Positions 10,318 to 39,513 of a DNA stretch of 64,000 bases are shown one piece after another. The stretch's first letter is position 1, and each line of letters starts with the position of its first letter. The translations under genes and the position numbers were made by a program. The notes under the pieces are model-generated. The model saw only the letters and a program-made list of their open reading frames with translations, was not told the DNA's origin and searched no databases. The DNA is from Nocardia rhamnosiphila NBRC 108938. Lineage in GTDB: Bacteria; Actinomycetota; Actinomycetes; Mycobacteriales; Mycobacteriaceae. Where the stretch lies: the NCBI RefSeq assembly GCF_000720425.1, contig NZ_JOAJ01000002.1, forward strand, positions 434,001 through 498,000. The letters run 5' to 3'.

Positions 10318-10342
10318 CGTCGATCGCGGCCGCTGCAAGTCC

Positions 10343-11231: not shown

Positions 11232-11275
11232 GAAAGCGTGCTCGGCACCGACGCCGCCCAGATTGGAATACCGAG

Positions 11276-22351: not shown

Positions 22352-23621
22352 TCCTTGCCCGCACCATGACAGGGCCCACGGCCTTTGCCGCATCACGCTG
22401 CCGGAATACGGCTCGGTGATCGTCCCCGGGGACCATCTCACACTCCATGATCACGCACGGCTCACCGGGGGTGACAAAAGCCGCCGCATCTGCGGGGTTA
22501 CTCCGCATCGCGACGGCTGGCGAATCACCGCCCGAGAGATTGTCGGTGTGCTGCGCCTGACGCGTATCCACCTGAATATCGCCCCGAAGATGGCATTCAC
22601 CCGTAACTCATTGCTGCGCTGGACGGCGTATGCGATGAATGTCCCGGTGCCGCACGAAACCACGACGAGGGCCTGGCAGACCGATCGCACCGGCTTCACC
22701 GACCTGGTCGCCGCGGCGCTGCTCGCGGAGTGCCGGAGCCTGCTTGGTTACGGGCTCCGGCGTGACTATGTGCGCAACGCACGAATATCGCCGGTACTTC
22801 GCGGCCGGCTCGATGTGATGGCCCAGGCCACCAAACGCTACGGGATGCTCGACACCCTGCATGTGCACACCTTCGACCGTGAGACGGACATCTGGGAGAA
22901 CCGCTTGTGCGGCCATGCCCTGCGGGCAGCCGGCAAAGCAGTCGCCGACCCTCGGCTCGCCCGCGAGCTCATATCCGTCGCCGACGAATTCCCGGCCTCC
23001 GGATCAGTCGCGACGGTTCTCCGCGCTCAGCTGAGGGCCCGCTATACCCCGTTGAACTTGCACTACCGTCCCGCCCACCTGTGGTCCGCCTTGATTCTCC
23101 GCGGCGGCGGGGTGAGCGACCTGCTCATCGACGCCGGAAACGCCGCGGACAGTCTTCTGTTGGATATGCCGCGACTCTGGGAGAAGGTCGTGGTCCGGCT
23201 GACCGCCGACTCGGCACCTGCCTTCGCAGCACCCGTGTCGCCGACCGATCGCTCGAGAATCAAGATATGCGGTGATCTGTCGAACCAGTCATCGTTCCGT
23301 CCGGACGTCCTGTTCCGAATGCAACAAGCCGACGGGGACGCCATGCTGCCCATCGATGCGAAGTACAAACACTACCATCGCACCTCGCTGGCCGCGGCCG
23401 ATCTGCACCAACTCCTGACCTACGTCGCGGGCTATGCGCCCGAGGAGGCACCGATCGCCGCGATCATCCATCCGGCCCCCGAGTCCGGCGGGTTTCGGAC
23501 GGTGCGCGTCCACGGCAACGGTCGTGAACTCGGCGCGGTGCGAGTCTTCGGTGTGGACACCGACATGCCGCCGGCCGCGGCGACCGAATGGCTCACGACC
23601 AAGCTGTGGACCGACGAATGA
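22338..23621 (+). CDS. mcrC: McrC-like nuclease subunit of a McrBC restriction system
   Basis: A 427-residue McrC homologue. It has an N-terminal beta domain, a central helical part with the YENR-like motif DIWENRLCGHAL and DMPRLWEKVV, and a C-terminal PD-(D/E)xK nuclease core. The catalytic residues are visible as SFRPDVLF and LPIDAKYKHY (D...DxK). It should be the endonuclease stimulated by the McrB motor. The start is the GTG at 22338 inside the end of mcrB; upstream codons in this frame are the mcrB shadow. Confidence 0.87.
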   Translation: MPKPDPCPHHDRAHGLCRITLPEYGSVIVPGDHLTLHDHARLTGGDKSRRICGVTPHRDGWRITAREIVGVLRLTRIHLNIAPKMAFTRNSLLRWTAYAMNVPVPHETTTRAWQTDRTGFTDLVAAALLAECRSLLGYGLRRDYVRNARISPVLRGRLDVMAQATKRYGMLDTLHVHTFDRETDIWENRLCGHALRAAGKAVADPRLARELISVADEFPASGSVATVLRAQLRARYTPLNLHYRPAHLWSALILRGGGVSDLLIDAGNAADSLLLDMPRLWEKVVVRLTADSAPAFAAPVSPTDRSRIKICGDLSNQSSFRPDVLFRMQQADGDAMLPIDAKYKHYHRTSLAAADLHQLLTYVAGYAPEEAPIAAIIHPAPESGGFRTVRVHGNGRELGAVRVFGVDTDMPPAAATEWLTTKLWTDE

Positions 23622-24129: not shown

Positions 24130-25179
24130 GTGGCCGCGCCGACTGTGATCATCGACCTGTCGCCTGTAGTTCGTCGCGGCGGCAGAAACGATTGGCGTCA
24201 CGTCGAGATGGTTGTCAGGGCTTGGCGCGAGCAGAAGGACCCCGGCGCGGTCTTTTACGGCATTGCCGACAACAGCCTTAGACACCGCATGGATGGATAC
24301 GGCAATCAACGCCTCGCAGAGTGGAAGCGGCGCGGCTGTGCACGATCCGTTCCGTATGCCGATTCGGAAGTGCTTGAGCTGGCTGAGGCGAATCCTGAGG
24401 CTGTGATCATCACGACGGACTTGTTCCGTGATCATCGCCGGACTTTCCCGTGGCTCCAGGGAAGCACCCGTCTGCTGCAGCCCGTGATCAGCGGACCGAA
24501 CGTCACGTTTATTGAACTCGACTTCTCACCAATACCTCATTACGAAGTCTCCTGGCGAGCAGAGGAGGCCGACCTGAAGCCGAAGGGTCTGACGACGCCT
24601 CAGGCCCGGCGGGCTCTTCTGGACGAGTGGGCGTGCACCGACTCGACCTGTGTTTGGGCTGCAGCGCCCGTCATCGACGATGATCCGCGCTATGAGGATG
24701 GTCGAGTCTGCTGCCCCGAGTGCCGCACTCCAGCGCGTAGGGTAGGCGCGCGTGAGAACACGCGCGAGGTCGTCGTGCTTCTCGGGGATGACGAAGTTGA
24801 CCGAATCCCCATTGCCGAAGGCACATCGCTTTTCGTAGGCCGGGGCAGAGGCGAGGACCGTTACGACGTCCGGGCCATCCTGGACGATCGACACTCCGCG
24901 CTTGTCAGTCGCGACCACCTCTGCCTTTCCAACCGGTCCGGCCGTCTTATCGTCGAAGAACTCGGCTCCAGAAACGGCACTGCTCTGATCAGGAAGGGCG
25001 GAAACGAATCGCGGCTTCAGCCTGGCGTTCTGCAAACGCTCGAGGCGGCCGATCGGATCAGCCTCGCACGCGACGCGCTGCAGATCCGTCCCTCAGGTCG
25101 AAAGCGCGCCCGCGGACGGTACGCCCCCGATCTCACCACTGCACCCTGGCTACTCAATGCAGACGCCGAAAGGAACTGA
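24130..25179 (+). CDS. NYN/PIN-like nuclease domain fused to zinc ribbon and FHA domain
   Basis: 349 residues. Residues 3-130 resemble a Zc3h12a/NYN-type PIN RNase: strand TVIIDLSPVV with Asp9, FYGIADNSL (Asp47), YADSEVLELA (Asp78) and VIITTDLFRDH (Asp97, Asp101). Residues ~168-200 hold Cys pairs (CTDSTC, then CCPEC) that fit a zinc ribbon. Residues ~225-325 are a canonical FHA phosphothreonine-binding domain with VGRG, SRDH and SRNGT. The GTG start is preceded by AAGGAGAG. It is the first gene of a coupled operon that also encodes a Ser/Thr kinase, so the FHA domain may read that kinase's marks. A nuclease effector role is inferred. Confidence 0.72.
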   Translation: MAAPTVIIDLSPVVRRGGRNDWRHVEMVVRAWREQKDPGAVFYGIADNSLRHRMDGYGNQRLAEWKRRGCARSVPYADSEVLELAEANPEAVIITTDLFRDHRRTFPWLQGSTRLLQPVISGPNVTFIELDFSPIPHYEVSWRAEEADLKPKGLTTPQARRALLDEWACTDSTCVWAAAPVIDDDPRYEDGRVCCPECRTPARRVGARENTREVVVLLGDDEVDRIPIAEGTSLFVGRGRGEDRYDVRAILDDRHSALVSRDHLCLSNRSGRLIVEELGSRNGTALIRKGGNESRLQPGVLQTLEAADRISLARDALQIRPSGRKRARGRYAPDLTTAPWLLNADAERN

Positions 25180-25187
25180 GCCGCAAT

Positions 25188-25862
25188 ATGTCATTACTCG
25201 ATTCCTATGATCCTGTCGCGGCTCGCATCCTCCCCGTGGTCCTTCTATTGGACACGAGCGGGAGCATGCGTGAGGACGACAAGATCGATGTCCTCAACGA
25301 CAGCGTGACCGAGATGATCGAGGAGCTCACCTCGGTCGACGCCGGCCACGGGTTCATCACTCTGAGTATCATCACTTTCGGAGACGAATCCGCTAACGTC
25401 GTGACCAATAACGTCCCTATCGCCGACATCGAGTTCACGTCCCTGAAGGCACGCGGACGGACGCCCCTGGGTGATGCTCTCCGTGTGACGCGGGAACTGA
25501 TCGAGGACCGGCAAGCATTCCCCTCTCGCGCCTACCGCCCGACGCTCGCCCTCGTCTCCGACGGCATTCCGACCGATCCCAGCTGGGAGTCAGAGCTCGA
25601 GCACCTGTTGAAGAGTGAGCGAGGCGCCAAGGCCACACGCTTCGCGCTCGCAATCGGCGCCGACGCGGACAGGGAACTTCTCGGCCGGTTCAGCGGCGGC
25701 GAGGTTCATGAAGCGAGCGAAGCGGCACAGATCAGGAACTTCCTCAGATTCGTCACAACAACCATCACACAAGTGACGTTGTCGGTCTTCGAGCCCGATG
25801 TACCCGCTCAGTCCGACTCCGCAGAATCTATCCTTCGGCTGCAGAGCGACGATGCCTACTGA
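25188..25862 (+). CDS. vWA domain protein, TerY-like
   Basis: 224 residues, almost entirely one von Willebrand factor A domain. The MIDAS metal site is complete: LLLDTSGSM (Asp22, Ser24, Ser26), the Thr in ARGRTPLGDAL, and the Asp in LVSDGIPTD. No signal peptide or membrane segment is present, so it is cytoplasmic. Its closest functional parallel is TerY, the vWA partner of the kinase in TerY-P modules. It starts 8 bases after the FHA gene and overlaps the kinase gene by 11 bases. Confidence 0.82.
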   Translation: MSLLDSYDPVAARILPVVLLLDTSGSMREDDKIDVLNDSVTEMIEELTSVDAGHGFITLSIITFGDESANVVTNNVPIADIEFTSLKARGRTPLGDALRVTRELIEDRQAFPSRAYRPTLALVSDGIPTDPSWESELEHLLKSERGAKATRFALAIGADADRELLGRFSGGEVHEASEAAQIRNFLRFVTTTITQVTLSVFEPDVPAQSDSAESILRLQSDDAY

Positions 25863-27174
25863 ACTACGGGTCACGGACGAGACGGAGGTCGAATTCGTGC
25901 TGGGGTCGAAGATTGCCGAGGGGGCCCAGGGCGCGGTCTTCCGCGTCGACGGGCACCCCGGGTATGCCATCAAGCTCCTGAAAAAGTCCGAGGACTTGGA
26001 GCGGATCGCCGCTGTTCGGCGGCTTCCGCTGGACGGTTTGCCGGTCGCCGCACCGCTCACACTGATCCGCAACGGCGGCGAAGGCTACCTGATGCGTTTG
26101 GCAAGCGACATGACGCCTATCCGGGAGCCCTACCTCCCGCGTGAGTTCGGCGCTCGCGAGACCAACGCTCGTTGGTATCTCGAGACCGGAGGCCTCCGAC
26201 GTCGCCTCGCCATCGCTGCCAACATCGCTCACAGCATCTCAGCTCTGCACGAACGAGGCCTCGCCTACGTCGACCTGAACCCGAACAACGTCATGGTGTC
26301 CGATGATCTGAGCCGTACGGAGACGTGGCTCATCGACACCGACAATCTGACCTCACGATCGAACCCGAAGTCGGACATACTGGGCTTTCCTGGATACGTG
26401 GCGCCAGAGAGACTCAGACGAAGCGCACCACCTTCCACACTGGCCGACAGCTATATCCTGGCGATCCACGTTTTCCGCCTTCTCGTGATGCGACATCCTC
26501 TCGAGGGTCTGGCTGCCGAGGCCGTCGATGGCGACACCGCACGTGACCGGATGGACCGGGGTAACTTCCCCTACGTCTCAGACCCTGACGACCGCTCGAA
26601 CCAGCTTCCACCGCGAAGCTTTCCCGCTGGGCTCTTCCCTTTGGTGATGAGCGGACGGATGCGTCATTTGTGTGAACGGACTTTCGGCGACGGCAGAACA
26701 GACCCCTCCAAACGTCCTGGTTCTGCCCGTTGGCGCGACGTGCTCTTCAGCGCCTTGGACAACGTTGTCAGCTGCGCGAACGATTGCGGTTGGACCTACT
26801 ACAGGCTGCAGGTCGGTTGCCCGAACTGCGGTGCCGACACCCCACCGACTGCGCTCATCACCGTCTACTCCGGCACGGCCGAGCAGCCACTGGCTGCTCG
26901 GGATTCGTTTGTCGTAACCTCCGACGCTGAAACCAAGGTTATGCCCCGCCATCTATGGGGTCGGCACGACCAGCCCGACCCCGTTGTCACATTCTGGCCG
27001 GTCCGTGGGGGCTTCGAACTCAGGACATACGACGATGCGAGGGTGACCGACGGTTCCGGCAGAGATGTTGCGAGTATTCCAACTCCCTCCCGTGGTGACG
27101 TCTATCGAGTGCGTCTCAGCGTGCCCAACCGCCCCAGCCGCTTTCTCGCGCTCCGATCGGTGCAACCGGCATGA
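25852..27174 (+). CDS. Ser/Thr protein kinase with C-terminal zinc ribbon
   Basis: 440 residues. The protein-kinase fold is seen from the Gly-rich loop IAEGAQGAVF (21-30) and Lys41 (YAIKLL), through the catalytic loop YVDLNPNNVMV (Asp141), to the metal-binding LIDTDN in place of DFG, and FPGYVAPERL as the activation/APE segment. Around residues 318-336 two CxxC-type pairs (CANDC, CPNC) form a zinc ribbon; about 100 residues of beta-rich tail follow. A kinase plus zinc ribbon beside a vWA protein is the TerY-P arrangement as I recall it, but no PP2C phosphatase gene is present. The start at 25852 lies within the vWA gene; the end overlaps the helicase as ATGA. Confidence 0.8.
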   Translation: MPTELRVTDETEVEFVLGSKIAEGAQGAVFRVDGHPGYAIKLLKKSEDLERIAAVRRLPLDGLPVAAPLTLIRNGGEGYLMRLASDMTPIREPYLPREFGARETNARWYLETGGLRRRLAIAANIAHSISALHERGLAYVDLNPNNVMVSDDLSRTETWLIDTDNLTSRSNPKSDILGFPGYVAPERLRRSAPPSTLADSYILAIHVFRLLVMRHPLEGLAAEAVDGDTARDRMDRGNFPYVSDPDDRSNQLPPRSFPAGLFPLVMSGRMRHLCERTFGDGRTDPSKRPGSARWRDVLFSALDNVVSCANDCGWTYYRLQVGCPNCGADTPPTALITVYSGTAEQPLAARDSFVVTSDAETKVMPRHLWGRHDQPDPVVTFWPVRGGFELRTYDDARVTDGSGRDVASIPTPSRGDVYRVRLSVPNRPSRFLALRSVQPA

Positions 27175-30100
27175 AGTTGAGTCAGATCGCGTGCACCGCC
27201 GAACGCGCTGTGCGGCTCATACCGGTCCACTCGGTCCAGATCGAGGACGGCAAACCCGTCCGGCTCACAGTTACGCCGACGGGTGTCACCATCCACCATG
27301 ACACCTACGTCGCGGCCTGCGAGCGCCCCGACCTTCAGGATGCCGAGTGGCTCGAGACGGCGTGTGAGTCCGGTTCGTATATCGCCGAACTGCTTACCTC
27401 ATCGCAGAAGGTGATCGTTCGAGTCCTCACGTTCGCTGGGTTTCAGCGTTGGCCCGATGGCCGAATGGTCGGCGTCGACGACACAACCGTCGAGGACGTC
27501 AACCGGTCTCGTGGGCGAGCAGACGCTCCAGCAGAAGTCACGCAGTGGCTCGCCGGTGAATTGACACTCGATACCGGTGAGCCCTTCGCAGTGGTCACTG
27601 CCGGCGATGGCGAATTCGGTGCTGAGGCATTCCGCCTCGTCGGCGCCACGATTGTGGCCGACGTCCGACTGATCGATGACCGCCTGATCATTACGCGAGT
27701 CACCCACCGTACGCACAATTCAGAGCGCGGCCTCATCCTGGTGCGGGGAAAAGTCGCTGTTGTCGATGCGACACGGATGGGACGGATCAGCGCGGCCGAG
27801 AAACAAGAGATCAAACGTTTAGCGGAAGCGGACAACGCGTACCTGGCGGTCTGGGAGGAGTACAACGAGCTCGAACGCGAGGCCGCGCGCCAAGCAGCGC
27901 GCGACATCGGATGGGCCGACTACGACCGGTTTCGAGTCCGTGGCGATGGCTTTCTGGAATTCGAGCTGGTTCGGCACCCGCGTTCGGACGCGCTGCGCGA
28001 GCGCATCGGGCGCGATACGGTAGGGCTCGAGGCAGCCGCAGGGGTCGCATTCAATGACGAGGAGACCCGCGATGCCGTGATCGGTACAGCGTGGGTCACG
28101 GCCGAGGGAACGATTCGGTTGCGCCCGGACAAAACCTATCAGGACGGCACACTGCCCCAGCGCGGCACGATCGCCGGCGCTTTCACTCTGGACAGAATTC
28201 GCATCGAACGGCGTGAGAGGGCCAAAGCGCGGATCGCCCATGGCGAGACCGTCCCGGCTCGTCAAATGGGGCTGATTCTCGCAGATCAACGGCTCGATCC
28301 CATGGGTCGGGTGCGGCGTTACGCGCCGCTGTCACACCGAGTCCGGCAGATCCTCGGCGGAGAGCCCACGGAAGCTCAGGTGCAAGCGATCGATCTCGCG
28401 ATCAACTCACGCGACATTGTGTTGATCCAGGGCCCGCCCGGTACCGGAAAGACACGCGTGATCGCCGCCATCCAGGCGCGCCTCACTGAACTCAACAAAG
28501 ACGCTCCCGCACTTAACAAGCGGGTACTGCTCACCAGTTATCAGCACGACGCGGTCGCCAACCTTGTTCAGGCGGCCGATGACGGAAACCTTCCGCCGGT
28601 CAAACTGGGTCGAGCCGCAGGCGTTGACGACGAGACGTACCTCACTGCCTGGATCAACGACCTACAAGCACGGCTCGCCGAGCGGTACGAAAATGTTCGC
28701 CCCAACAAGGCGGTGCGCGCCCGCAAGGCTCTTATCGATCGCAGCAACGCATACCGTCGACAACCCTTCGATGTCGGTAGCACCGTGGATTTATTGAAGT
28801 GGCTTGCCGGGCAACTGGATCTCGTCGGTAGTGACGTTGTGCACGAGGCGGGCCGCTTGGCGAATCAGCTCGAGCACACCCTCGGAGCCGCATCCACTTC
28901 TCCCCGCTCGCAGGCCCTTGTGGCGCGACTGGCACGTTCCTTGCGTTCGTCGCCCGAGGGATATGCCGACGACGGCGACGTCACAGCGATGCGGGCCCTC
29001 TCCACTTCCGCCGTGTTCGATCTCTTGACCGACTCTCAACGGAACGTGTTGGAGATGGCCGCACGAGGTCAGGATGCCACGATTGCCGCACGCCGGCTTG
29101 CCGAGATAAAGCGAAGCCTGCTCGACCGACTTCTCGACGCCCGCGCGCGATCGAGCGTGATCGCGACGATGCCCACCGTCGAGGCCCTTCTCCAGCGTGC
29201 CCTCCACTCGGCCGATGAGGAAGTGGCGCTGGCCACGACTCCCATCGACCTCGCCGTCGAGCGGTTTCGTGATGCCGTTGAGCATCGGCCGGCGGCGATT
29301 CGACACTCGCTCCAGGCTCATACGCGTGCCTTGGCCGCTACCTGCCAGCAGGCGGTTTCGAGCAGCATGCGAGAGGCGCAATCGGTTCTGTTCGACACTG
29401 TGATCGTCGACGAGGCAGCCCGCGCCAATCCACTCGACCTCATGGTGCCGCTGAGTTTGGCGAAGGAACGTATCATCCTCGTCGGTGACCATCGGCAGCT
29501 CCCTCAATTGCTCGATGACAGTATCGTGCCGAGGTTGTCATCACGCCACGACGCGAATGTCGTCTCGGCCGTCCTGCAGAGATCGATGTTCGAGCGGCTG
29601 TTCCTCAAGCTCCGCGAAACGGAACACCGTAGCGGCACGAAAAGGGTTATCACCCTTGATCGACAGTTCCGCATGCACCCCGTGCTGGGTGCCTTCATCA
29701 GCAGGCAGTTCTACGCGCCCTTCGGTGAGCGCTTGAGCAACGGAAATCCGGATACGTCCTCGTTCGCGCACAACATCGCAATGTACGGCCGAGCGGCGTG
29801 CGGGTGGATCGATGTACCGGTGGCGAGAGGGGCCGAGCAGCGGGCCGGTACAAGCATAAGCCGACCGGCGGAGGCATCGATGATCGTCAGCGAACTGATG
29901 GTCGGCCTGCTGTCGTCATCTGAACTCACGTTCGGCATCATCACCTTCTATTCGGGTCAGGTCACCGCGATCTGGGAGGCCATGGCCGAGTCCGGGCTCG
30001 CTGTCAGGCAAGGCGACAACTTTGACCTCAACCCATCGATTCCTTGGTTGCGTACGAACCGTGACCTGCCCCGTGTCCGTATCGGGTCCGTCGACGCATT

Positions 30101-30359
30101 CCAGGGCCGTGAGTTCGATGTGGTCTATTTGTCGACAACGCGGTCGCGTAAACCAGGCTCCGGACGACGATCGAACCCGTACGGATTCCTTGTCCTGCCG
30201 AACCGGCTCTGCGTTGCCATGAGCCGGCAACGCAAACTTCTGGTGGCCGTGGGCGACGCCGCGATGATGACCTCGCCGGAAGGCCGAGAGGCAGTTCCCG
30301 CACTTGCCGCCTTCCACGACCTGACAGGGGGCGAGCATGGCTTCCGCCGAGCGGCGTGA
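27171..30359 (+). CDS. UPF1/Dna2-like superfamily 1 helicase
   Basis: 1062 residues. The first ~400 are of unknown fold, with a helical charged segment around 205-245. The C-terminal ~650 are an SF1B helicase: Walker A GPPGTGKT (421-428), Walker B IVDEAARANP (~745), motif III GDHRQLPQ (~771), motif IV QFRMHP (~831), motif V SVDAFQGREFDVV (~973) and motif VI VAMSRQRKLL (~1015). A long insertion of about 300 residues separates motifs Ia and II. It should translocate on RNA or single-stranded DNA. It is coupled at both ends (ATGA to the kinase, 23-base overlap with the next gene) and has no fused nuclease. Confidence 0.85.
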   Translation: MKLSQIACTAERAVRLIPVHSVQIEDGKPVRLTVTPTGVTIHHDTYVAACERPDLQDAEWLETACESGSYIAELLTSSQKVIVRVLTFAGFQRWPDGRMVGVDDTTVEDVNRSRGRADAPAEVTQWLAGELTLDTGEPFAVVTAGDGEFGAEAFRLVGATIVADVRLIDDRLIITRVTHRTHNSERGLILVRGKVAVVDATRMGRISAAEKQEIKRLAEADNAYLAVWEEYNELEREAARQAARDIGWADYDRFRVRGDGFLEFELVRHPRSDALRERIGRDTVGLEAAAGVAFNDEETRDAVIGTAWVTAEGTIRLRPDKTYQDGTLPQRGTIAGAFTLDRIRIERRERAKARIAHGETVPARQMGLILADQRLDPMGRVRRYAPLSHRVRQILGGEPTEAQVQAIDLAINSRDIVLIQGPPGTGKTRVIAAIQARLTELNKDAPALNKRVLLTSYQHDAVANLVQAADDGNLPPVKLGRAAGVDDETYLTAWINDLQARLAERYENVRPNKAVRARKALIDRSNAYRRQPFDVGSTVDLLKWLAGQLDLVGSDVVHEAGRLANQLEHTLGAASTSPRSQALVARLARSLRSSPEGYADDGDVTAMRALSTSAVFDLLTDSQRNVLEMAARGQDATIAARRLAEIKRSLLDRLLDARARSSVIATMPTVEALLQRALHSADEEVALATTPIDLAVERFRDAVEHRPAAIRHSLQAHTRALAATCQQAVSSSMREAQSVLFDTVIVDEAARANPLDLMVPLSLAKERIILVGDHRQLPQLLDDSIVPRLSSRHDANVVSAVLQRSMFERLFLKLRETEHRSGTKRVITLDRQFRMHPVLGAFISRQFYAPFGERLSNGNPDTSSFAHNIAMYGRAACGWIDVPVARGAEQRAGTSISRPAEASMIVSELMVGLLSSSELTFGIITFYSGQVTAIWEAMAESGLAVRQGDNFDLNPSIPWLRTNRDLPRVRIGSVDAFQGREFDVVYLSTTRSRKPGSGRRSNPYGFLVLPNRLCVAMSRQRKLLVAVGDAAMMTSPEGREAVPALAAFHDLTGGEHGFRRAA

Positions 30360-31602
30360 CCTCTCCGCGTACACACTTGCCGACTTAACATGGAGAATCC
30401 GGCATGTCGTGCTGACCCCAGCGGTCCGTTGGCGTGTGGTTGTCGAGCAGGTCAGAAAAATCGACCACGATGTCATTCTCGAAACTGTCCTTCGCTTGAG
30501 GGCGGCTGGAGAATCTTCCCCTGGCCGCATCGCCGACCTCCTCCAACTACCCGACGACTTGATCCGGCACCTCCTCGCGCAAGCGGTGACCGAGAAGTGG
30601 CAGGTGGCCGCCGGCGGGCAGCTCCAGGCGAACAGCTCACAGGTTGCTTGGGTCTATCGCGATCTGGCGACAGGGGAACTCTGGCCTGATCCGGCTCCGG
30701 AGGTGCCGCCACTACCCGTGCGATTCACCTCGGTCTTTCGCGGACGATTCGACCGCGGTACCGCCGGACGACCCATCTCCGTCGAATGCCTCCTGCTCGA
30801 CACCGATGAGCACGATGTGGCGGAGCCGACCGGCATCGAGCTCGCCCGATTCAGCCGAGCTTCAGCGGACCGCAGCAGGCGAACCGCGATTGTCAGTTCT
30901 GGCGAATTGTGCCTTGTCGCGAGTCCGGTCGTCGGTCTGACGGCCGGGTACGCCATTGAGACCACACGGGGCATTCCCCACTTGAGCTTGACTCGTCACC
31001 TCGTCAAAGCGAGTCAAGAGCACCAAGCGGTGTCTCGCTGGCTCCATGAGGTTCCGGAGGCCGAGGCCCCGCCTTCCACGGATTTTCCTCTGAAGCAGGC
31101 GATCGCCGAACTGCGCGACATAGTCGGTGCACTGCGAACCCTTCAACATGCGGCAGACGAATTCGAAAGCGTTCTCAGCCGCGTCGAACTCTGCTTGAGT
31201 CGGTTTGTTGATCAGTATCAATACCTGCACGGCCTCGATACGAGCCTTGACCCGTCACCAGCCGACGCGGCCGTACTCAGCACCGGGTTCGAGCTCGATC
31301 GAGATGCCGCCGAGCTCCTGGCACGTTCGAAGCGTGGCACTCTTGGTCATAAAGTTTCCCGCCTGCTCCTGATCGAGGGGAGAGGGAACCCGCACAACGA
31401 GCAGATGCTGCGGCGTCTGGCAGCGTCCTCGGCTGAATGGCTGGCCGCTACACGCGCCCACAACTCTCATGTCTCACTGACTCAATTGGTAGACGCCACA
31501 ATCGCGTTATGCGATCGGCTCATCACCGTATCGGAGAATGCTGATGTCCAGCAAGCAGGCCAAAGGACGCGATGCTGCCCGGAACGCCGCCAGGCTGGCT
31601 GA
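30337..31602 (+). CDS. Hypothetical operon protein, 421 aa
   Basis: No family recognised. The N-terminal ~95 residues are helical and resemble a winged-helix unit (VETVL-like helices, RIADLLQLPDDLIRHLLAQ). A beta-rich middle follows (WVYRDLATGEL, VRFTSVFRGRF, ELCLVASPVVGL). From ~240 on it is predominantly helical, possibly coiled. No catalytic motif, membrane helix or zinc site is evident. It starts inside the end of the helicase gene (23-base overlap) and runs about 59 bases into the AAA+ gene, so it is surely part of the same unit. It may be an adaptor between helicase and AAA+ motor, which is a guess from position. Confidence 0.7.
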   Translation: MASAERRDLSAYTLADLTWRIRHVVLTPAVRWRVVVEQVRKIDHDVILETVLRLRAAGESSPGRIADLLQLPDDLIRHLLAQAVTEKWQVAAGGQLQANSSQVAWVYRDLATGELWPDPAPEVPPLPVRFTSVFRGRFDRGTAGRPISVECLLLDTDEHDVAEPTGIELARFSRASADRSRRTAIVSSGELCLVASPVVGLTAGYAIETTRGIPHLSLTRHLVKASQEHQAVSRWLHEVPEAEAPPSTDFPLKQAIAELRDIVGALRTLQHAADEFESVLSRVELCLSRFVDQYQYLHGLDTSLDPSPADAAVLSTGFELDRDAAELLARSKRGTLGHKVSRLLLIEGRGNPHNEQMLRRLAASSAEWLAATRAHNSHVSLTQLVDATIALCDRLITVSENADVQQAGQRTRCCPERRQAG

Positions 31603-33796
31603 GGTCGAAGCCGCTCTTACGGCATGTCCAGAACCCCCAGAAGACGTCGTCGCCGAACTCGACAAGGTCGAGCTCGCCGAATCCGAAATCGGCACCGCTG
31701 TCCAGCTTCGTAACGCATGGATGAAGGTCAAGGAGCGAGAGGCCGGATGGCGGAAGGCCACGGAAAAGGCCGAGAGTGAGGCGAAGGCTCTTCAGGAGGC
31801 GCGCGATGCCCTCTCGACAGAACGGGACGTGCTTGCCGAACGCGCCGATCGGCTCGCGAATCGGGAATCCGAGCTTGTCCGTGAAGCCCTATCCATCGAA
31901 GAACAGCGCTCGGCGGCGAAGGCCGGCTTCGCCGCCGAACTGCGATCGCTCACCCAGGAAGCCGCTCAACTCCGCGACAATATCCTGGCCGAGGCCGCCA
32001 AAATCGAGTACGAGGCGATGGTGCGTGCTCGGGACATCGTCGCCGCGGCTCAGCGGGATCTGGAGGCCGAGCGCGCCGAACTCGCCGACAAATGGGTCGA
32101 ACTTCGTCGCCGGCAGGTCGACCTGCGCGAACGCGAAGCGCGGATCGAAGCAGATCTCTCGTTCGCACAGGCGAAGGAATTGATGGTGGCTGAGCAGTTC
32201 GAGCGACGATTGGAGGCGCGGGTTGCCACCGTAAGTGATCAATTGGATGAAGCCAATCAGCTTCTCGAGTTGGAGCGTCGGCGCAGGGGAACGCGGGAGC
32301 AGGAGCTGAAAGACCTTCGTGCGGAGTTGGCGCGATACAACGAGGACCCGGACACCATCAGGCGCCGGAACGATGACTTGGTGCGGCAAGTGCGTGACCT
32401 CCGCGACGAACTCTCCCGGCGACCGCCCGCCGATGAGGTAGCGGAGTTGAGGCAGCGGGCCCAGACGGTCACTGAGGCCCAGGCGGAAGCGGCGCACTGG
32501 CAACAGCAGCACGACGCGATCGACCGACAGCTTCGTTACCAATTGATAAACGTCGGCGAGCTCGAGGTACTGCGCGACGAGCGTGAGGCGCTCACCGCGC
32601 AGCGCGAGACTCTCAGACAAGCAATTGAGCAGCACCGAGGGGACTGGGAAGAGTTGCAAGCCAGGGAAAGTTCCACGGAACCGTTCCCCGCTTGCTCCGC
32701 CTACGATCGGGACGACGTACTGTCGCGTCCTACCGCTACTCGGGACTTCGACACGTTGGCGGAGCTCGTCGCCGAGGTCCGCAACCGCATGGCAACCGAC
32801 TCGACCACGGCCTTCTACTACTCCGAGTCCGATGTACGTCTCTTCCTCGCCGGATTGGCTTCGAGTCGGCTCCATCTCCTCCAAGGCATCTCCGGAACTG
32901 GTAAAACGAGCCTGCCCCGCGAGTTCTTCAGGGCCCTCGGAGGTGATGCCCAGATGATCGAGGTGCAGGCCGGCTGGCGCGACAAGGACGATCTCTTCGG
33001 CTACTACAACGCCTTCGAGAAGCGCTTCGTCGAGAGCGAGTTCACCAAGGCGCTCTACCGAGCACTGCTTCCTGCCAACGCTGACAGGCCGATGGTCATC
33101 GTTCTGGACGAGATGAACCTGGCTCATCCGGAGCAGTACTTCGGTTCGATGCTTTCGATTCTCGAGAATGCTGTCACCGAGCCGGGCCACATCGATTTGC
33201 TCACCAGCGTTCTACCCGGGCTTCCAGAACGATTCTCGGGGTCCCGCCTTCCTTTGCCACGCAATGTTTGGTTCGTCGGAACCGCGAACCATGACGAGAC
33301 CACTGTCGCCTTCGCGGACAAGACGTATGACCGCGCGCATGTCCAGGAACTCCCGCCGCAGCACAAGCCGTTCGAGGCTCGCCGGCAAGGACTCGCTGAC
33401 CCCATCTCGTTCAGGGCACTGGAGTCCGCGTTCGTCGAGGCCGGACGTGACTGCGCCGACGAGGTCGAGGAAGCGAAGCAGCTCCTGAACAAAGGCCTGC
33501 ACGGTGAATTCGCACGTTTCGGTGTCGGTTGGGGAAACCGTTTCGAACGGCAGCTCGAACGGTTCGTTCCTGTGGTCCTCTACGGTGGCGGGAGTCTTAC
33601 CGAGGCTGTGGACCACCTCGTGGCGACCAAGCTCGTTCGTAAGCTCAAAGACCGATTCGAAATTCGCCCTGATGATTTGGACCAACTCGCCGATAGTATC
33701 GAGAAGCTCTGGAAGCTCGATCAGGAGAGGCCGGAAAAGTCGATCAAACGAATCCGTGCCGAGGCCGATCGCCTCCGTGAAGGTTACCGAGCGTGA
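31544..33796 (+). CDS. McrB-like AAA+ ATPase with long N-terminal coiled coil
   Basis: 750 residues. Residues ~45-390 are an almost uninterrupted coiled coil rich in Glu, Arg, Ala and Leu heptads. Residues ~420-750 are a McrB/MoxR-class AAA+ domain: Walker A GISGTGKT (~449-456), QAGWRDKDDLFGYYN, Walker B VIVLDEMNLAH (~517-527) and sensor 1 GTANHDETT (~580). The DEMNLA form belongs to the McrB-like clade that partners DUF2357 nucleases. I start at the ATG at 31544, seven bases after GGAG. The stop overlaps the next gene as GTGA. A coiled-coil McrB beside an McrC-like gene is the hallmark of CoCoNuT systems as I recall them. Confidence 0.82.
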   Translation: MSSKQAKGRDAARNAARLAEVEAALTACPEPPEDVVAELDKVELAESEIGTAVQLRNAWMKVKEREAGWRKATEKAESEAKALQEARDALSTERDVLAERADRLANRESELVREALSIEEQRSAAKAGFAAELRSLTQEAAQLRDNILAEAAKIEYEAMVRARDIVAAAQRDLEAERAELADKWVELRRRQVDLREREARIEADLSFAQAKELMVAEQFERRLEARVATVSDQLDEANQLLELERRRRGTREQELKDLRAELARYNEDPDTIRRRNDDLVRQVRDLRDELSRRPPADEVAELRQRAQTVTEAQAEAAHWQQQHDAIDRQLRYQLINVGELEVLRDEREALTAQRETLRQAIEQHRGDWEELQARESSTEPFPACSAYDRDDVLSRPTATRDFDTLAELVAEVRNRMATDSTTAFYYSESDVRLFLAGLASSRLHLLQGISGTGKTSLPREFFRALGGDAQMIEVQAGWRDKDDLFGYYNAFEKRFVESEFTKALYRALLPANADRPMVIVLDEMNLAHPEQYFGSMLSILENAVTEPGHIDLLTSVLPGLPERFSGSRLPLPRNVWFVGTANHDETTVAFADKTYDRAHVQELPPQHKPFEARRQGLADPISFRALESAFVEAGRDCADEVEEAKQLLNKGLHGEFARFGVGWGNRFERQLERFVPVVLYGGGSLTEAVDHLVATKLVRKLKDRFEIRPDDLDQLADSIEKLWKLDQERPEKSIKRIRAEADRLREGYRA

Positions 33797-35871
33797 CTCC
33801 CCCGCACGATCGCCTGACTGCTGAACCCGGCGAACCCGAGAGCGGGTGGACCGGCAGATGGGCCGAGGGGGCCATACACATCGTGGACACGGCGAGCGGC
33901 AGCACCAACAGGGATGCGGTCGAGTCGGACGACCTCGATGCGCTCATGGCTCTGGCACAAGGCCTCACGGACGCCGTGCTGTCCGGTTCGTGGCACAAGG
34001 GCAGCCGGGTGCCCCTGCTGTCCGGACGTGACGAGGAGAGCCTTCAACTCCATGCCCGGGAACGAATCCTTGAAACGAACTTGCCTTCCATCGCCCGCGT
34101 GTGCGAGCGGTTCGTCACGAGACTCGGCGAAAGATCGGAGCTCCTTCCGGTTGCCAGGGTGAAACGCCCCGCTCGAAAGGCGTTGGAACGCTTGTCGGCT
34201 CACACCGAGGATTGGGCGGCTCGAACCCTCTCCGGTCCGGTACCACGCCGGGCGCTGGCAGCGACTCGCGAAGAGAACGCCGACCTGTACGAGAACCGGA
34301 TGGTGACCGAGCTCGTACATCCCATCCTCACGACCGCTTTGAGTCAACGAATCCGCCGCCTTCACCGGCTGACGTCCGACCTCGCAGATCTCGAGAAGGC
34401 CAAGGACGAGGGCACGCATCACCGCCGTCATCGCCTCTACGCATTCTGGGGAGCGGACGCGGCCCGGGCTGCCGAGTCATCGACTCGCACTGCTCAGACC
34501 CTGCGGGTGCTCGAGGCACTCGCCGCCAGGGTGCAATCTCTGCGAGGAAGCACCCTGGTCGAGACACTACGAGGTCGCCGAACGGGCCGACGCGGCCTCC
34601 GAAACACCAACGTCATCGCCAACGACAGGCACTACCGGGCCGCTGGCATGGTTTGGTCGGCCTACGAGCGGGAGCCGGAAGTCGACGAATCTCCAGAAAA
34701 GCGAGCGAGCCGGTTTCGGTCCAGACACCAAACGTTCGACATTTATGTCTTCGGTCTGGTCATTCGCGCGCTCGGCGATCTCGGTTATTCCCCCGACGAG
34801 GATGAGCTGCCGGGCGAACACGGGCCCGTCACTGTACGCGGCCCGTGGGGGGCGGTGGATCTCGCTCGAGGCCCCGACGGCGTCATCGTCCTCACGAGTC
34901 ATCATCAGAGTACGCGCTTCGTGCCGTTACTCGACCTGGTCGGCCCGAATGACGAGCCGCAGACCATCGCTCGCAGATGGGCATCGGTGGAGGGCGCGGC
35001 CAAGAGCTGGACAGTGGTGGTGAATTTGGCGGCCGACGAGGCGATCCGACGGTTGCCTCGTGAACTCGCGATCGCTATGAGCTCCGTCGGACACGACGGC
35101 GTGAATCCAGAGCAGACCGTCACCTGCCTGCCCGTGTCTCCTTTGGAGACCACGAGCCTCGAGCGCGTCGCCCGCGCGGTCGCCATCGCTGTGCAGGTAC
35201 CGGCCCTACTCGACTATCCCCGAGCTATCCTGCCAAGCGGGGCTCGGATGTCCGGCCGCCTTATTGATTACGTGATGGACGCCGATATCGCCCAACTCGG
35301 GTTGAGCCCACTGTTCCACCGCCCGAGGAAGGGCGAGATTGCTATCAGGCGTCCGCTCACCGGCTCAGAGCAGACCAAGTTAGATGCGACGATTCGTCGA
35401 CTCTCGGACCGAGCGAAGTCCCCGGGATGGGAGCGCGACCTGATCACCGAGATCGAGTCACTGCGCTCGGCGATCGAGAGCACGGCCGCTTCAACAGCGG
35501 AACTCCTGACCTGCCCGCTGTGTGCGACTCGCGGCGATACGACCCGAGTCGGCCGCGATGCCGACATCTTCATGATCACATGTCGCTCGTGCGAGGCGAG
35601 GTGGGGTCACGAACGGTGTGGTCGATGCGGAGAGCGCATTCCGATCATTGAACCTGAGCGCCAAATTCGGAATCCCGATGTGACCGGTCCCGGATGGATC
35701 GAACGCATCTATGGTCGGGATGCGCTGTCCTCCCCCTGTTGGGCACGTACTGTCCCGGGACGATATATCTGCCCGGAATGCCGATCATGTTCCGTATCGA
35801 CGGCGCGGGAGGGAGTCGATTGCGTTCGGTGCCAACCAGTAGAGAATGGACTGCCCCGGACCGTTGGTTGA
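33793..35871 (+). CDS. DUF2357/McrC-like protein with C-terminal zinc ribbons
   Basis: 692 residues. Residues ~150-180 contain ENADLYENRMVTELV, the YENR motif of DUF2357 proteins and McrC. Residues ~310-420 have the helix and strands of a PD-(D/E)xK fold (FDIYVFGLVIRAL, then WGAVDLARGPDGVIVLTS), but the expected D/E-x-K after the first Asp is not visible, so cleavage activity is doubtful. From ~573 to the end there are at least five Cys pairs (CPLC, CRSC, CGRC, CPEC, CVRC), indicating tandem zinc ribbons. It is the last gene of the operon, joined to the AAA+ gene by a GTGA overlap, and is presumably the partner of that motor. Confidence 0.7.
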   Translation: MTPPHDRLTAEPGEPESGWTGRWAEGAIHIVDTASGSTNRDAVESDDLDALMALAQGLTDAVLSGSWHKGSRVPLLSGRDEESLQLHARERILETNLPSIARVCERFVTRLGERSELLPVARVKRPARKALERLSAHTEDWAARTLSGPVPRRALAATREENADLYENRMVTELVHPILTTALSQRIRRLHRLTSDLADLEKAKDEGTHHRRHRLYAFWGADAARAAESSTRTAQTLRVLEALAARVQSLRGSTLVETLRGRRTGRRGLRNTNVIANDRHYRAAGMVWSAYEREPEVDESPEKRASRFRSRHQTFDIYVFGLVIRALGDLGYSPDEDELPGEHGPVTVRGPWGAVDLARGPDGVIVLTSHHQSTRFVPLLDLVGPNDEPQTIARRWASVEGAAKSWTVVVNLAADEAIRRLPRELAIAMSSVGHDGVNPEQTVTCLPVSPLETTSLERVARAVAIAVQVPALLDYPRAILPSGARMSGRLIDYVMDADIAQLGLSPLFHRPRKGEIAIRRPLTGSEQTKLDATIRRLSDRAKSPGWERDLITEIESLRSAIESTAASTAELLTCPLCATRGDTTRVGRDADIFMITCRSCEARWGHERCGRCGERIPIIEPERQIRNPDVTGPGWIERIYGRDALSSPCWARTVPGRYICPECRSCSVSTAREGVDCVRCQPVENGLPRTVG

Positions 35872-36108: not shown

Positions 36109-38217
36109 TTACGGATGGTGCGCAGTCCGCCTGATCTTTGTCTTCTCGCCGACGACAGTGGTCGCCCCGACGGGATCGGATGTGCGGGCGGCGAGGCTTG
36201 CGCGGGCAAGGTGCTCCGGAAGTGCCGCGGAGAACTTCAGCCCCCGTACCGCGTTTGCGTCAACGGGGGGAGGCGGCCCGCCCCTAGCCGCGCGGAGCTC
36301 GGCCAGCCCCGACCTGATCTCGCTGACCGTGAGGTCGGAGTGGAGGCGCAGCGATTCGGCGGTGATCTTCTGCCGTGCCGGTACGAGGTCGGTGGCCCAC
36401 GCGGCAAGGGTGCGGTTGACCTTGCTCCCCGCCCAGGTCCACCACCGCCAGTCGTCCCGGCTGTCGCGGGTGATCACGAATGAGTCTTCAGCGACATGGT
36501 CTCGGCGTAGCAGGCGCTGGTCCTCGAGACTGACGACCGCCCGCTTCGTGAGAGTCACTCCAGCGGGGACGGCGCCGAGCAGGACCTCTCTGATTCCACG
36601 GGTGATGGCGAACGAGGAACCGTCGGGTACCGAACTCCACTTGGCGCGGCCGGCGATATCGGTGGCTTCGACGTATACCTGCCGTCGCTTCCAGTCGGTA
36701 TGCGTAACCTGCCACGACCTACCGGCCAGGAGCAGGATTCGTGGGCCTTCGACAACATCGGTGAGGACGCTCGATTCCACCGAGCCGATTTCTTGTCGCC
36801 CCGCGAACACCGTGAACTCCGGCGCGGCCGTGAACACGGCGAGGAGGTCCATGAAGTGGCGTCGGCCGAAGTGCTGCTCGGCTTCGGGCCCGATGAAGGC
36901 GCTGCCGGCGTCGTGTTCGAGGAACCCTCCGGCCAGCAGGTGGTCGAAGATTTCCTGTCCGTCGGCATCGAACAGTGGGAGCCGTCCCCATGCCTGTTGC
37001 CAGCCACTGAGCGGCACCCGGCGGGTTTGCAGGGCCGCTGCCAGTAATTGCTGGGCGGCGATATGCCGCGGTTCCGGGGTCGGGACCACGGGCTCGACCC
37101 ACCCCGAAGCCCAGCACTGCAACATCCCGAGTGTGTCGAGGACAGCTTGGTCGGTGAGGCCGAGGAAGAGGCAGTTGCGGGTTGTGCCGGGCCGGCGACC
37201 GGTGCGGCCGAGCCGCTGCAGGAACGATGAGACCGTGCGCGGTGCGTTGATCTGGATGACGCGATCCAGATCGCCGACGTCGATGCCCAATTCAAGGGTG
37301 GAGGTGGCGACGATGACGCAGTCGCGAGCTTCGGCGAACGCCTGCTCCGATTCGCGGCGTTCCGCGGCGGACAGCGACGAGTGCGAGACGAAGGTGGTGA
37401 TCTCGCGTCGGCGCAGCTCGGCGCCGAGTTCTTCGGCGAGGCGGCGGGAATCTACGAAGACCAGGCGCTTCTCGCCCGAGTGAAGTGCGGCGATCACCTT
37501 CGCGGCGTTCTCGACGCTACCGACGGAATCTACGGTGATCTCCGGTGCGACGGCGCTGCCGAGCACTGCGGGGGCAATGACCCGGCCGGGTCCGGTGGTT
37601 CCACCCTGGAGCCAGCCGAGAAGCTGGTCCGGGTTTCCGACGGTGGCGGACATGCCGACTCGTTGCAACCGCCTGCCGAGGAGTGTTTCGAGGCGGGCGA
37701 GGACTGCGAGCAGATGCCAGCCGCGGTCGTCGCCGGCGAATGCGTGCACCTCGTCGACCACTACGGCCCGGAGTCCGCTGAGCAGTTCACCGGCGTCCAC
37801 GCTTTCGGAGACCAGCATGGATTCCAGAGATTCGGGGGTGGTGAGCAGGATGTCGGGCCGGTCGCGTTTGATGCGGCCACGGACCGATTGGCTGACGTCA
37901 CCGTGCCAGTTCATCGCGGACCGGCCGAGCCATTCGGCGTACTCGGCCAGCCGGGGCTGCAGGTTGTTGAGCAGTGCTTTGAGCGGGCAGATGTAGAGCA
38001 CCGAGATTCCGGTCCATCGCTCGGATTGCATCCGCGTCAGCAGCGGGAAGACCGCGGCCTCCGTTTTGCCGCCAGCGGTGGGCGCGAGCAGGATCGCGTC
38101 GGACCCGTTGATGATGGGCGAGACGGCTTCGGCCTGGAGCGCACGCAACCCCGGCCAGCCGAGCGTATTGACAATGTGGTGCTGCAGGGCGGGATCGAGC
38201 CGGTCGAATCCCGTCAC
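36109..38217 (-). CDS. brxHI: BREX type 2 Lhr-like DEAD/DEAH helicase BrxHI
   Basis: A 702-residue superfamily 2 helicase of the Lhr class. Walker A is APTAGGKT (45-52), Walker B is VVDEVHAF (DEVH at 155-158), motif III is GMSAT (188-192), and motif VI is in LQRLGRTGRRPG. It is the distal gene of the type 2 BREX operon. Its GTG start follows the brxD TAG stop directly. In BREX-2 loci BrxHI and BrxD accompany the core pgl genes; their exact step in phage exclusion is not established. The long open frames on the opposite strand are GC-driven shadows. Confidence 0.88.
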   Translation of the reverse strand: MTGFDRLDPALQHHIVNTLGWPGLRALQAEAVSPIINGSDAILLAPTAGGKTEAAVFPLLTRMQSERWTGISVLYICPLKALLNNLQPRLAEYAEWLGRSAMNWHGDVSQSVRGRIKRDRPDILLTTPESLESMLVSESVDAGELLSGLRAVVVDEVHAFAGDDRGWHLLAVLARLETLLGRRLQRVGMSATVGNPDQLLGWLQGGTTGPGRVIAPAVLGSAVAPEITVDSVGSVENAAKVIAALHSGEKRLVFVDSRRLAEELGAELRRREITTFVSHSSLSAAERRESEQAFAEARDCVIVATSTLELGIDVGDLDRVIQINAPRTVSSFLQRLGRTGRRPGTTRNCLFLGLTDQAVLDTLGMLQCWASGWVEPVVPTPEPRHIAAQQLLAAALQTRRVPLSGWQQAWGRLPLFDADGQEIFDHLLAGGFLEHDAGSAFIGPEAEQHFGRRHFMDLLAVFTAAPEFTVFAGRQEIGSVESSVLTDVVEGPRILLLAGRSWQVTHTDWKRRQVYVEATDIAGRAKWSSVPDGSSFAITRGIREVLLGAVPAGVTLTKRAVVSLEDQRLLRRDHVAEDSFVITRDSRDDWRWWTWAGSKVNRTLAAWATDLVPARQKITAESLRLHSDLTVSEIRSGLAELRAARGGPPPPVDANAVRGLKFSAALPEHLARASLAARTSDPVGATTVVGEKTKIRRTAHHP

Positions 38218-39513
38218 CTAGAGCTCCACATCGTCGGCGCTGACCGCGCCGCGCTCGGTATCGGTGAGCTCCGTGGTGGTGACGGTCAGCGCATAGTGCT
38301 GTCGTGGATCGAAATCGGGGAATTGGTCGACTCGGTCGAGAATGTCGAGGACCAGTTTCTTGAGGAACAACCGCGGCGAGATACCGACCTGACCGCCGAG
38401 TTTTCCGGCGACAGCCGAGGCGAGGGCGCCAAGGTACGCGTCATCCACGAGCGTGCGAATGCGTTCAGGTGCCTGTGCACCCTCGGCGTATACCGAGCGA
38501 ACCCGCATACCGACTTCGACGAGCCGGTCGAGGTCGAATCCGGCGAGCCGGATCTGCGGAGCCCGCGGGTTGTCGAACCGGGCGTCGGTGGTGAAGTCGG
38601 TGTGCAGGCGCTGAGCGAGCGGCGGAAGCGACTGGATGCCGAGCCGGCCGTCGAAGAAGGCGGGAGTACCGGTGATGAGCAGGTACAGGCCCGGGTAACG
38701 ACCGGAATCGAGTTCGTCGATCCACTGCCGCAGCGCATTGAGCGCCTTGGCCCGGCTGTCCGAACGCATCCGCTGCAGTGTTTCGACCTCGTCGATCACC
38801 AGCAGCAGACCGGGATGCCGTGCGCCTTCCAGTACGGCGAGCAGGCCCTGCAGGAAACCCATCGCCAGGAAATGGTCTACGTCCTGGCGCACTCCGGCCG
38901 CACGCTTGGCGCCGGCACCCACGTGTGGTTGTCCCCCGAGCCATGCGACCAGTGCATCCGCTGTCGCCGCGTCACCCGAGGTGAGGGCGGCACGGTAAGC
39001 GCGCAGCACCATCGGATACACCGGGGTCGCCGAAGCGACCGTGGCGAGACGCCGTTCGAGCAGCGTGTCCACCTGCTCGACCGTGGCCTCTTCCACCCCG
39101 GCGGCCGCCGCGGCGTCCTCTTCTATCCCGAACAGCCAGGCGTCCAGCACATTACGGAATGCCGACGGTGGAAACGCCGCGGTGCGCAGTGACTCGGTGG
39201 TGCGCCGATAGACGGTTTCGAGTTTGTGCAGCGGCGTTTCCAGCTCGCTGATCTGTACCTCGGCCACCGCCAAACCGCGGCGCATCGCCCGCTGCTGCAT
39301 CCATCGGGCGAAGAACGTCTTACCGGACCCGTAGTCACCGCGTACGGCTTTGAACATGGACCCGCCCGCCGCGACGGCTTCGAGGTCCTCGTCGACAGCG
39401 GGTACGAACCTGTCGATGCCTACAGCGAGCGCATCGAGGCTGCCGGCCGGGACGGTGCCCTGGCGCAGTGCCTGCAGGATCTCGCGCCGCCGGACCGGTG
39501 ACAGCGCGCTCAC
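38218..39513 (-). CDS. brxD: BREX type 2 ATP-binding protein BrxD
   Basis: A 431-residue P-loop ATPase. Walker A is GDYGSGKT (59-66), Walker B is LLLVIDEVETLQ in the middle, and the C-terminal part is helical. This matches the BrxD ATP-binding protein placed between pglZ and brxHI in type 2 BREX. The GTG start overlaps the pglZ stop (GTGA) and the stop abuts brxHI, so it cannot be expressed independently at the translational level. Confidence 0.87.
   Translation of the reverse strand: MSALSPVRRREILQALRQGTVPAGSLDALAVGIDRFVPAVDEDLEAVAAGGSMFKAVRGDYGSGKTFFARWMQQRAMRRGLAVAEVQISELETPLHKLETVYRRTTESLRTAAFPPSAFRNVLDAWLFGIEEDAAAAAGVEEATVEQVDTLLERRLATVASATPVYPMVLRAYRAALTSGDAATADALVAWLGGQPHVGAGAKRAAGVRQDVDHFLAMGFLQGLLAVLEGARHPGLLLVIDEVETLQRMRSDSRAKALNALRQWIDELDSGRYPGLYLLITGTPAFFDGRLGIQSLPPLAQRLHTDFTTDARFDNPRAPQIRLAGFDLDRLVEVGMRVRSVYAEGAQAPERIRTLVDDAYLGALASAVAGKLGGQVGISPRLFLKKLVLDILDRVDQFPDFDPRQHYALTVTTTELTDTERGAVSADDVEL

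Follow-up and report, generated by a model that had tools for sequence, protein, structure and literature searches.

Which system do seven tightly packed genes at 24130–35871 encode, and what does the protein that leads them, an NYN RNase fold joined to a phospho-reading FHA domain, do there? We examined the locus computationally within its window, the whole 64 kb stretch of DNA that was analysed. Judged by homology and gene order, the operon is a relative of the Type II CoCoNuT plan, homologous to and collinear with operons of known order in genes 2–7, and it is probably an anti-virus system, a defence function that we infer. As read from the sequences, it differs from known CoCoNuTs in an added NYN-zinc ribbon-FHA (NYN-ZnR-FHA) gene, a missing PP2C and a CnuE in which the HEPN motif is not conserved.

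Operon layout and distribution

An ORF check of the 64 kb window reproduced all seven ORFs on the plus strand (Table 1), together with the gap and overlaps reported in the original prediction. The intergenic distances from gene 1 to gene 7 are 8, −11, −4, −23, −59 and −4 with the chosen starts, which for genes 1, 3 and 6 were picked from several in-frame candidates. The operon had also been placed between McrBC and BREX-2. Downstream, a BREX type 2 set (BrxHI, BrxD, PglZ, PglX and PglW) is indeed found; upstream (20189–23621), the identification of an McrBC-like pair depends on the domains assigned in that prediction. The first upstream protein matches the PADLOC models PD-T4-1, PDC-S02 and restriction-enzyme, and the second has no PADLOC match.

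Table 1. The seven genes of the operon, with positions in the window
Gene	Product	Positions	Strand	Remarks
1	NYN RNase-zinc ribbon-FHA protein, 349 aa	24130..25179	+	GTG start; alternative TTG at 24070
2	TerY-like vWA protein, 224 aa	25188..25862	+	Pfam VWA_2 E 4e-10; MIDAS-like DTSGS
3	Ser/Thr kinase, C-terminal zinc ribbon	25852..27174	+	Pfam Pkinase E 5e-10
4	UPF1-like SF1 helicase CnuH, 1062 aa	27171..30359	+	AAA_11/AAA_12 E ~1e-30
5	CnuE, elongated wHTH-type N-terminal part and C-terminal helical domain with HEPN-like fold	30337..31602	+	
6	CnuB, coiled coil and McrB-type ATPase/GTPase, NxD motif	31544..33796	+	AAA_5 E 2e-9
7	CnuC, DUF2357/McrC-like, C-terminal CxxC zinc ribbons	33793..35871	+	DUF2357 E 0.01, under cut-off

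The expectation that the seven genes travel together held. Six relatives from other genome records, all found with gene 1 as the query, keep the same order across the retrieved stretches (6/6; 31–77% identity per gene); in four of these six the seven-gene order is complete, and the contigs of the other two end early. Genome searches with CnuC as the lone query, an insensitive approach in which two to three candidates were scored per genome, gave 1 in 301 genomes from the family and 3 in 396 from the phylum, with the window's own counted. The two homologue lists share 26 contig sizes (25 of the 51 CnuE contigs of at least 12 kb), an overlap that is only suggestive.

Relationship to Type II CoCoNuTs

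In the parts of Bell et al. 2024 (PMC11090510) covered here, Type II CoCoNuTs have in common with this operon a vWA protein, a Ser/Thr kinase with zinc ribbon (STK-ZnR), the UPF1-like CnuH, a wHTH-type CnuE, a coiled-coil CnuB with the NxD motif and a zinc-ribbon CnuC in which no nuclease motif is visible. The CoCoNuT-like composition originally proposed was thereby borne out for the six genes after gene 1, which are homologous to and collinear with CoCoNuT-type operons; their order equals that of four plasmid operons with a TerY-P triad. CnuH, encoded together with CnuE, CnuB and CnuC as in Type II, shares 30–36% identity across the greater part of its sequence with the helicases from ten related operons, and the blastp alignments begin only at residues 69–152. 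The CnuB of the window reads GTANHDETT, with NxD in place of NxxD, and NxD was found in all 15 CnuBs compared. Residues 56–375 of CnuB contain 2.5% Pro and Gly and 41% charged residues, and their 3.5-residue hydrophobic period was matched by 12 of 500 shuffles (151 of 500 for the ATPase part); composition and periodicity thus point to the long coiled coil joined to CnuB in CoCoNuTs generally. Weak SMC-type matches to residues 13–376 lay far under the curated cut-offs.

CnuC aligned with the proteins at the same place in five plasmid operons (blastp E 4e-17 to 1e-59), and DUF2357 was matched in the four plasmid-operon counterparts scanned. When the alignment was inspected by eye, several CxxC pairs and no PD-(D/E)xK motif were visible in CnuC, in agreement with the Type II trait of a zinc ribbon and an inactivated nuclease. 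The description of genes 6 and 7 as an McrBC-like motor/nuclease pair is therefore doubtful.

The TerY-P triad, as given in the portion of PMC11090510 covered, consists of a vWA protein, a PP2C phosphatase and an STK with a zinc ribbon or OB-fold. The operon shares the vWA protein and the STK-zinc ribbon but has an FHA-NYN protein and no PP2C. The PADLOC TerY match of gene 2 was weak (E 0.006). The gene 3 kinase keeps its catalytic residues (AIKL, YVDLNPNN and LIDTDN are visible), and its zinc ribbon is visible as CX3C...CX2C. As originally predicted, tblastn with four PP2C queries (E up to 1e-3) gave no match in the 64 kb window, nor in relatives L002–L007, so that the PP2C required for a TerY-P triad is absent from the operon. 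Related plasmid operons with PP2C were found in Pseudanabaena, Deinococcus, Rhodoferax and Polaromonas. A related Nostoc plasmid operon lacks both PP2C and NYN-FHA, as do five operons from one genus of the same class. Unlike the Type II CoCoNuTs described in the covered sections of PMC11090510, the operon lacks PP2C and has the NYN-ZnR-FHA gene in front.

Mokosh systems consist of MkoA and MkoB. Because PADLOC matched CnuH to MkoA (278 bits) and CnuE weakly to the N-terminus of MkoB (16.5 bits; E 9e-4), we considered identity with Mokosh and set it aside on gene content: unlike Mokosh, the operon has five further conserved genes (a separate kinase, CnuB, CnuC, vWA and NYN-FHA). The literature searched (main texts, with queries that did not join CoCoNuT, FHA and NYN) yielded neither a named system with this exact gene set nor an FHA-NYN CoCoNuT. 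Counted as whole words, FHA, NYN and PIN do not occur in the main text of PMC11090510, nor FHA and NYN in PMC12458937, nor FHA in PMC10889362; in PMC8195603 both FHA and NYN are present, in unrelated passages. The NxD motif, the unconserved HEPN motif of CnuE and the related operons that either carry PP2C or have neither it nor NYN-FHA had been omitted from the original prediction.

The NYN-FHA protein and CnuE

Both folds of the leading FHA-NYN protein are supported, as had been proposed. The protein comprises an NYN domain (residues 1–131), candidate zinc-binding Cys residues 169, 174, 195 and 198, and an FHA domain (residues 207–326; Pfam E 3e-6). The RNase_Zc3h12a/NYN match has an E value of 5e-4, at 20.4 bits versus a Pfam cut-off of 23, and the matched NYN-fold structures bear RNase titles. 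Among 31 sequences, the candidate active-site Asp and the FHA residues are invariant, and the conserved, low-confidence C-terminal tail carries DLT/DLxT in 26. No relative of gene 1 was found among IMG/VR viral contigs, and genes 1 and 5 had no match in PLSDB plasmids.

Gene 5 had been regarded as an unknown addition of 421 residues. By profile comparison it is a divergent CnuE at its canonical operon place: its N-terminal part aligned with CnuEs of canonical-order operons at probabilities of 97.4% and 98.7% (hhalign). Those operons were assigned to Type II on the strength of their gene order and the traits of their CnuC, and not by reference sequences. The alignment also identifies the elongated wHTH of Type II CnuE and rules out an unknown extra gene. 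Pfam returned nothing for this protein, and Foldseek alone gave no match at E up to 0.001.

The C-terminal domain is where this CnuE departs from Type II CoCoNuTs, in which the HEPN RxxxxH is conserved in most cases according to the covered part of PMC11090510. In searches whose scoring was limited to the candidates sharing most words, R[ND]x3-4H was present in the last 150 residues of 58 of 59 canonical CnuE homologues, a sample that is biased because the organism-named matches are mostly cyanobacterial, and of 3 of 77 gene-5 homologues. Ten shuffles of each set gave 2–7 and 0–6, respectively, which places 3/77 at chance level. Judging from these homologues, the HEPN RNase motif is not conserved in this CnuE family. 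A looser R-x4-6-H occurs in the final loop region of 7 of 35 relatives at shifting positions. The window CnuE may nevertheless be an active HEPN, since the loop that joins the final two of its predicted helices contains RAHNSH (R373–H378), a motif that is not conserved but reads RVDNSH in a 94% relative. The variant proteins are about 100 residues shorter (median length 403, canonical 511) with a poorly conserved C-terminal domain. Variant and canonical C-terminal domains gave no profile alignment (probability 0.1%), and it is therefore on the helical-fold match that we describe the variant domain as a putative degenerate HEPN. In a CnuB tree of 15 relatives (support 99/97), NYN gain and HEPN motif loss fall on a single evolutionary event; because both happened once, their correlation has no independent replicate. 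Among the 11 loci that lack NYN, two (L035 and L048) are also missing the motif Arg.

A possible phosphorylation-gated RNase

We favour, at a probability of roughly 0.58, an effector swap within this relative of the Type II plan, whereby phosphorylation would recruit the NYN RNase to the helicase; defence, RNA targeting and phospho-dependence are presumed components. CnuB, CnuC and CnuH with CnuE would sense phage RNA, aberrant RNA or stalled translation, and the vWA-kinase pair would phosphorylate a partner threonine in CnuH, CnuE or the FHA protein's own tail. Binding of the phosphothreonine by the FHA domain would then place the NYN endoribonuclease at single-stranded RNA that the UPF1-like helicase has exposed, and RNA cleavage would stop the phage or the cell. 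With no phosphatase present, signalling inside the operon would run in one direction only.

It is unlikely, in our estimate, that nothing was swapped and that two RNases act in tandem, with the CnuE C-terminal domain still an RNase (a HEPN that has diverged and may rely on different residues) and NYN-FHA a second effector. RAHNSH in the window is set against a strict motif as frequent in relatives as in shuffles, a looser one that shifts in place, and a shortened, poorly conserved domain. The missing PP2C, the first position of the NYN-FHA gene and its conserved DLT/DLxT tail would also fit a brake that replaces the PP2C off-switch by holding phosphothreonine marks or destroying operon mRNA until infection, but a substitute brake appears unnecessary because the Nostoc and same-class operons lack both PP2C and NYN-FHA, and we consider this role improbable.

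McrB/McrC ancestry and the neighbouring BREX type 2 set could suggest Type IV restriction of modified DNA, with NYN nicking DNA or R-loops. The CnuC without a visible PD-(D/E)xK motif, the RNase titles of the matched NYN structures and the UPF1-like helicase all argue against a DNA target, which we regard as very unlikely. That gene 1 is a mere passenger of an ordinary CoCoNuT is hardly credible: related operons without it exist and distant homologues live elsewhere, but the vWA gene directly follows gene 1 in 6/6 close relatives (38–69% gene-1 identity; found with gene 1 as the query), and the gap in the window is 8 bases.

The effector-swap arrangement would be analogous to SMG1-UPF1-Regnase-1/SMG6 decay, by which human cells dispose of some of their messenger RNAs and which, in the excerpts of PMC7145602 and PMC4132714 covered, likewise combines a UPF1-like helicase, a protein kinase, a Regnase/PIN-fold RNase and phospho-dependent docking. 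The likeness is an analogy only, as the phospho-reader is FHA in the operon and a 14-3-3-like domain or the RNase domain itself in the eukaryotic pathway; the dominant SMG6-UPF1 contact is phospho-independent (covered part of PMC4132714). We tentatively suggest that bacteria independently built a phosphorylation-gated RNA decay machine from parts of this type, with a portable kinase and FHA-NYN immune effector plugged into CoCoNuT in place of the HEPN RNase. If true, it would be a bacterial counterpart of kinase-UPF1-RNase decay. In the literature sections covered, triggers, targets and activation steps of Type II-plan CoCoNuTs are only predicted, and phosphorylation-dependent activation is merely hypothesised for TerY-P-linked systems; because in the variant the RNase is joined to a phospho-reader and forms a protein of its own, such activation becomes directly testable.

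Distant gene-1 homologues occur outside CoCoNuT operons. A Ser/Thr kinase adjoins FHA-NYN in 6 of 10 such loci, so that kinase and FHA-NYN look like a portable cassette, to which the variant points in Actinobacteria. The originally proposed link from kinase to FHA is sensible and gains support from these adjacent kinase genes. No adjacent kinase motif was found in the other four (L022, L025, L030 and L031), and no further HRD...DFG motifs in 166 kb of the distant loci. The Pkinase domain was confirmed in all five of the neighbouring kinases tested, and some of the kinases beside distant FHA-NYN genes carry WD40 repeats.

The operon and its relation to Type II CoCoNuT

The seven same-strand genes were found as predicted, with a gap of 8 bases followed by overlaps of 11, 4, 23, 59 and 4 bases at the starts chosen in the original prediction. 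Domain searches agreed with the domains assigned to genes 1 to 4 and 6 and, weakly, to gene 7. Gene 5, which had been taken for an unknown addition, is CnuE, because of both its operon position, the one CnuE holds in operons of canonical order, and its homology: profile comparison with CnuE gave a probability of 97.4% (E = 1e-11, 236 columns) and, for the wHTH part, 98.7% over 106 columns. The G+C content of the block is 0.62-0.64, compared with 0.66-0.71 at 1-20 kb and 0.67-0.68 at 36-44 kb; it is equally low at 46-50 kb and 56-64 kb of the window.

Features of the window around the operon
Feature	Position	Strand	Remarks
McrBC-like pair	20189-23621	+	First protein: N-terminal part matches PD-T4-1, middle matches PDC-S02 models; second protein: no PADLOC match at 1e-8
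Gene 1 (NYN-zinc ribbon-FHA)	24130-25179	+	
Seven-gene operon	24130-35871	+	
BREX type 2 set	36109-53744	-	Downstream of operon; BrxHI, BrxD, PglZ, PglX and PglW by PADLOC; ORF 42296-46351 outside that scan

As described by Bell et al. (2024; PMC11090510), the defining feature of CoCoNuTs is a McrB-type GTPase of the NxD branch that bears a coiled coil; in Type II systems it is joined by the UPF1-like helicase CnuH and CnuE (an elongated wHTH protein with one HEPN RNase), very often together with the TerY-P triad (vWA, PP2C, kinase-zinc ribbon). The window operon shows each of the general CoCoNuT features that were examined, and gene 6 (CnuB) carries the NxD motif as GTANHDETT. Cys pairs of the zinc-ribbon kind are present in gene 7 (CnuC), where inspection by eye revealed no PD-(D/E)xK motif. 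The HEPN RxxxxH typical of Type II is not conserved in the CnuE family of the window operon, and we therefore file the operon, judged by its sequence, as a variant relative on the Type II plan, apart from Type II proper. The system probably works like Type II with another RNase. Counted as whole words, FHA, NYN and PIN are absent from the main text of PMC11090510, as are FHA and NYN from a later YprA-helicase preprint (PMC12458937). Term searches found no publication on an FHA-NYN CoCoNuT variant; supplementary tables, which lay outside their scope, may list some loci.

Distribution and related operons

A pattern scan built on the gene-1 alignment, covering 84,980 species at one genome per species, confirmed six relatives of gene 1, in Lentzea, a Mycobacterium MAG, Agromyces, Micromonospora, an Armatimonadetes-labelled MAG and Nocardioides. 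The genes do travel together, as predicted: all seven occur in order in four of the six, gene 7 reaching the end of the fetched stretch, and the other two contigs end early, the Mycobacterium one within gene 4 and the Armatimonadetes-labelled one about 0.6 kb past gene 5, with no gene-6 match in that remainder. Identity to the window is 38-69% for gene 1 and 31-48% for gene 5. The actinobacterial-type operon on the Armatimonadetes-labelled contig (L006; gene 1 at 51% identity) reflects either transfer or misbinning.

The system is rare in the genome samples scanned. Among 396 genomes sampled from the phylum, at least 3 have CnuB (the source of the window and two members of genus g34); the corresponding figures are at least 1 among 150 for the window's genus, again the source genome, and at least 5 among 199 for g34, including the two from the phylum sample. 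These counts are lower bounds because the number of candidates scored in each genome was small.

Searching plasmids with gene 6 gave 267 records, each of which covers less than 80% of it. Among the best 5 of 267, plasmids of Pseudanabaena, Deinococcus, Rhodoferax and Polaromonas carry the order vWA-PP2C-kinase-CnuH-CnuE-CnuB-CnuC, and one of Nostoc carries it without PP2C; gene order was taken from annotation, and the Cnu names were assigned here. The window has the same operon, minus PP2C and plus gene 1. Four of the five plasmid CnuCs were scanned, and these contain DUF2357 and lack an Hsp70 domain, as expected for Type II but not for III-A. A third operon type occurs in g34, one genus of the class (L032, L033, L045-L047), where vWA-kinase-CnuH-CnuE-CnuB-CnuC is accompanied by neither PP2C nor NYN-FHA and the RNxxxH of CnuE is intact in all five. 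The absence of PP2C thus does not require FHA-NYN. A viral-collection contig (L048) encodes vWA-kinase-CnuH-ORF-CnuB-CnuC, its ORF at the CnuE place having LNESAH where others carry RNxxxH.

In a tree built from the ATPase domains of 15 CnuBs, the five NYN-bearing CnuBs form one group (support 99/97), PP2C-bearing CnuBs group at 70/92, and the Nostoc sequence has a very long branch. The association of NYN gain with loss of the CnuE motif is a single event without replicate.

Kinase and FHA-NYN genes

When 394 genomes of the class were searched with a profile, nine of them, in addition to the window, proved to hold ten distant NYN-FHA places (23-31% identity); tblastn of the fetched surroundings detected no CoCoNuT genes. 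In six of the ten, the NYN-FHA gene directly adjoins a gene bearing HRDxKxxN-type and DFG motifs, and this motif pair occurs nowhere else in the ten stretches (166 kb in total). Of the other four loci, two contain a kinase-like motif that lacks DFG, at a distance of about 6 kb, and two contain no motif of this kind. All five tested of the six adjoining genes (L023, L024, L026-L029) contain a Pfam protein kinase, three as WD40 fusions; the tested neighbors in loci L022 and L030 are not kinases. The adjoining kinase genes support the view that kinase and FHA act together, and suggest that a CoCoNuT already possessing a kinase acquired an FHA-NYN gene. Kinase plus FHA-NYN thus appears to form a portable cassette. 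The six distant NYN-zinc ribbon-FHA genes that adjoin Ser/Thr kinases possibly represent a separate effector system. In L022, a reverse transcriptase/group II intron maturase gene (9595-11586, minus strand) adjoins the NYN-FHA gene.

Proposed mechanism

We propose that phage or aberrant RNA would be engaged by CnuH together with CnuE and the CnuB/CnuC motor, that the vWA-kinase pair would phosphorylate a threonine within the complex, and that the FHA domain would dock on it, allowing the NYN RNase to cut RNA exposed by CnuH. The likeness to the SMG6/UPF1-type RNA decay of eukaryotes concerns the parts and not their descent. In SMG6, which contains a 14-3-3-like domain, the dominant contact with UPF1 is nevertheless phospho-independent (PMC4132714); publication titles mention the PIN domain and endonuclease activity of SMG6. 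The C-terminus of gene 1 carries a DLT/DLxT tail in 26 of 31 homologues, a candidate phosphosite in a region of low prediction confidence (pLDDT about 46).
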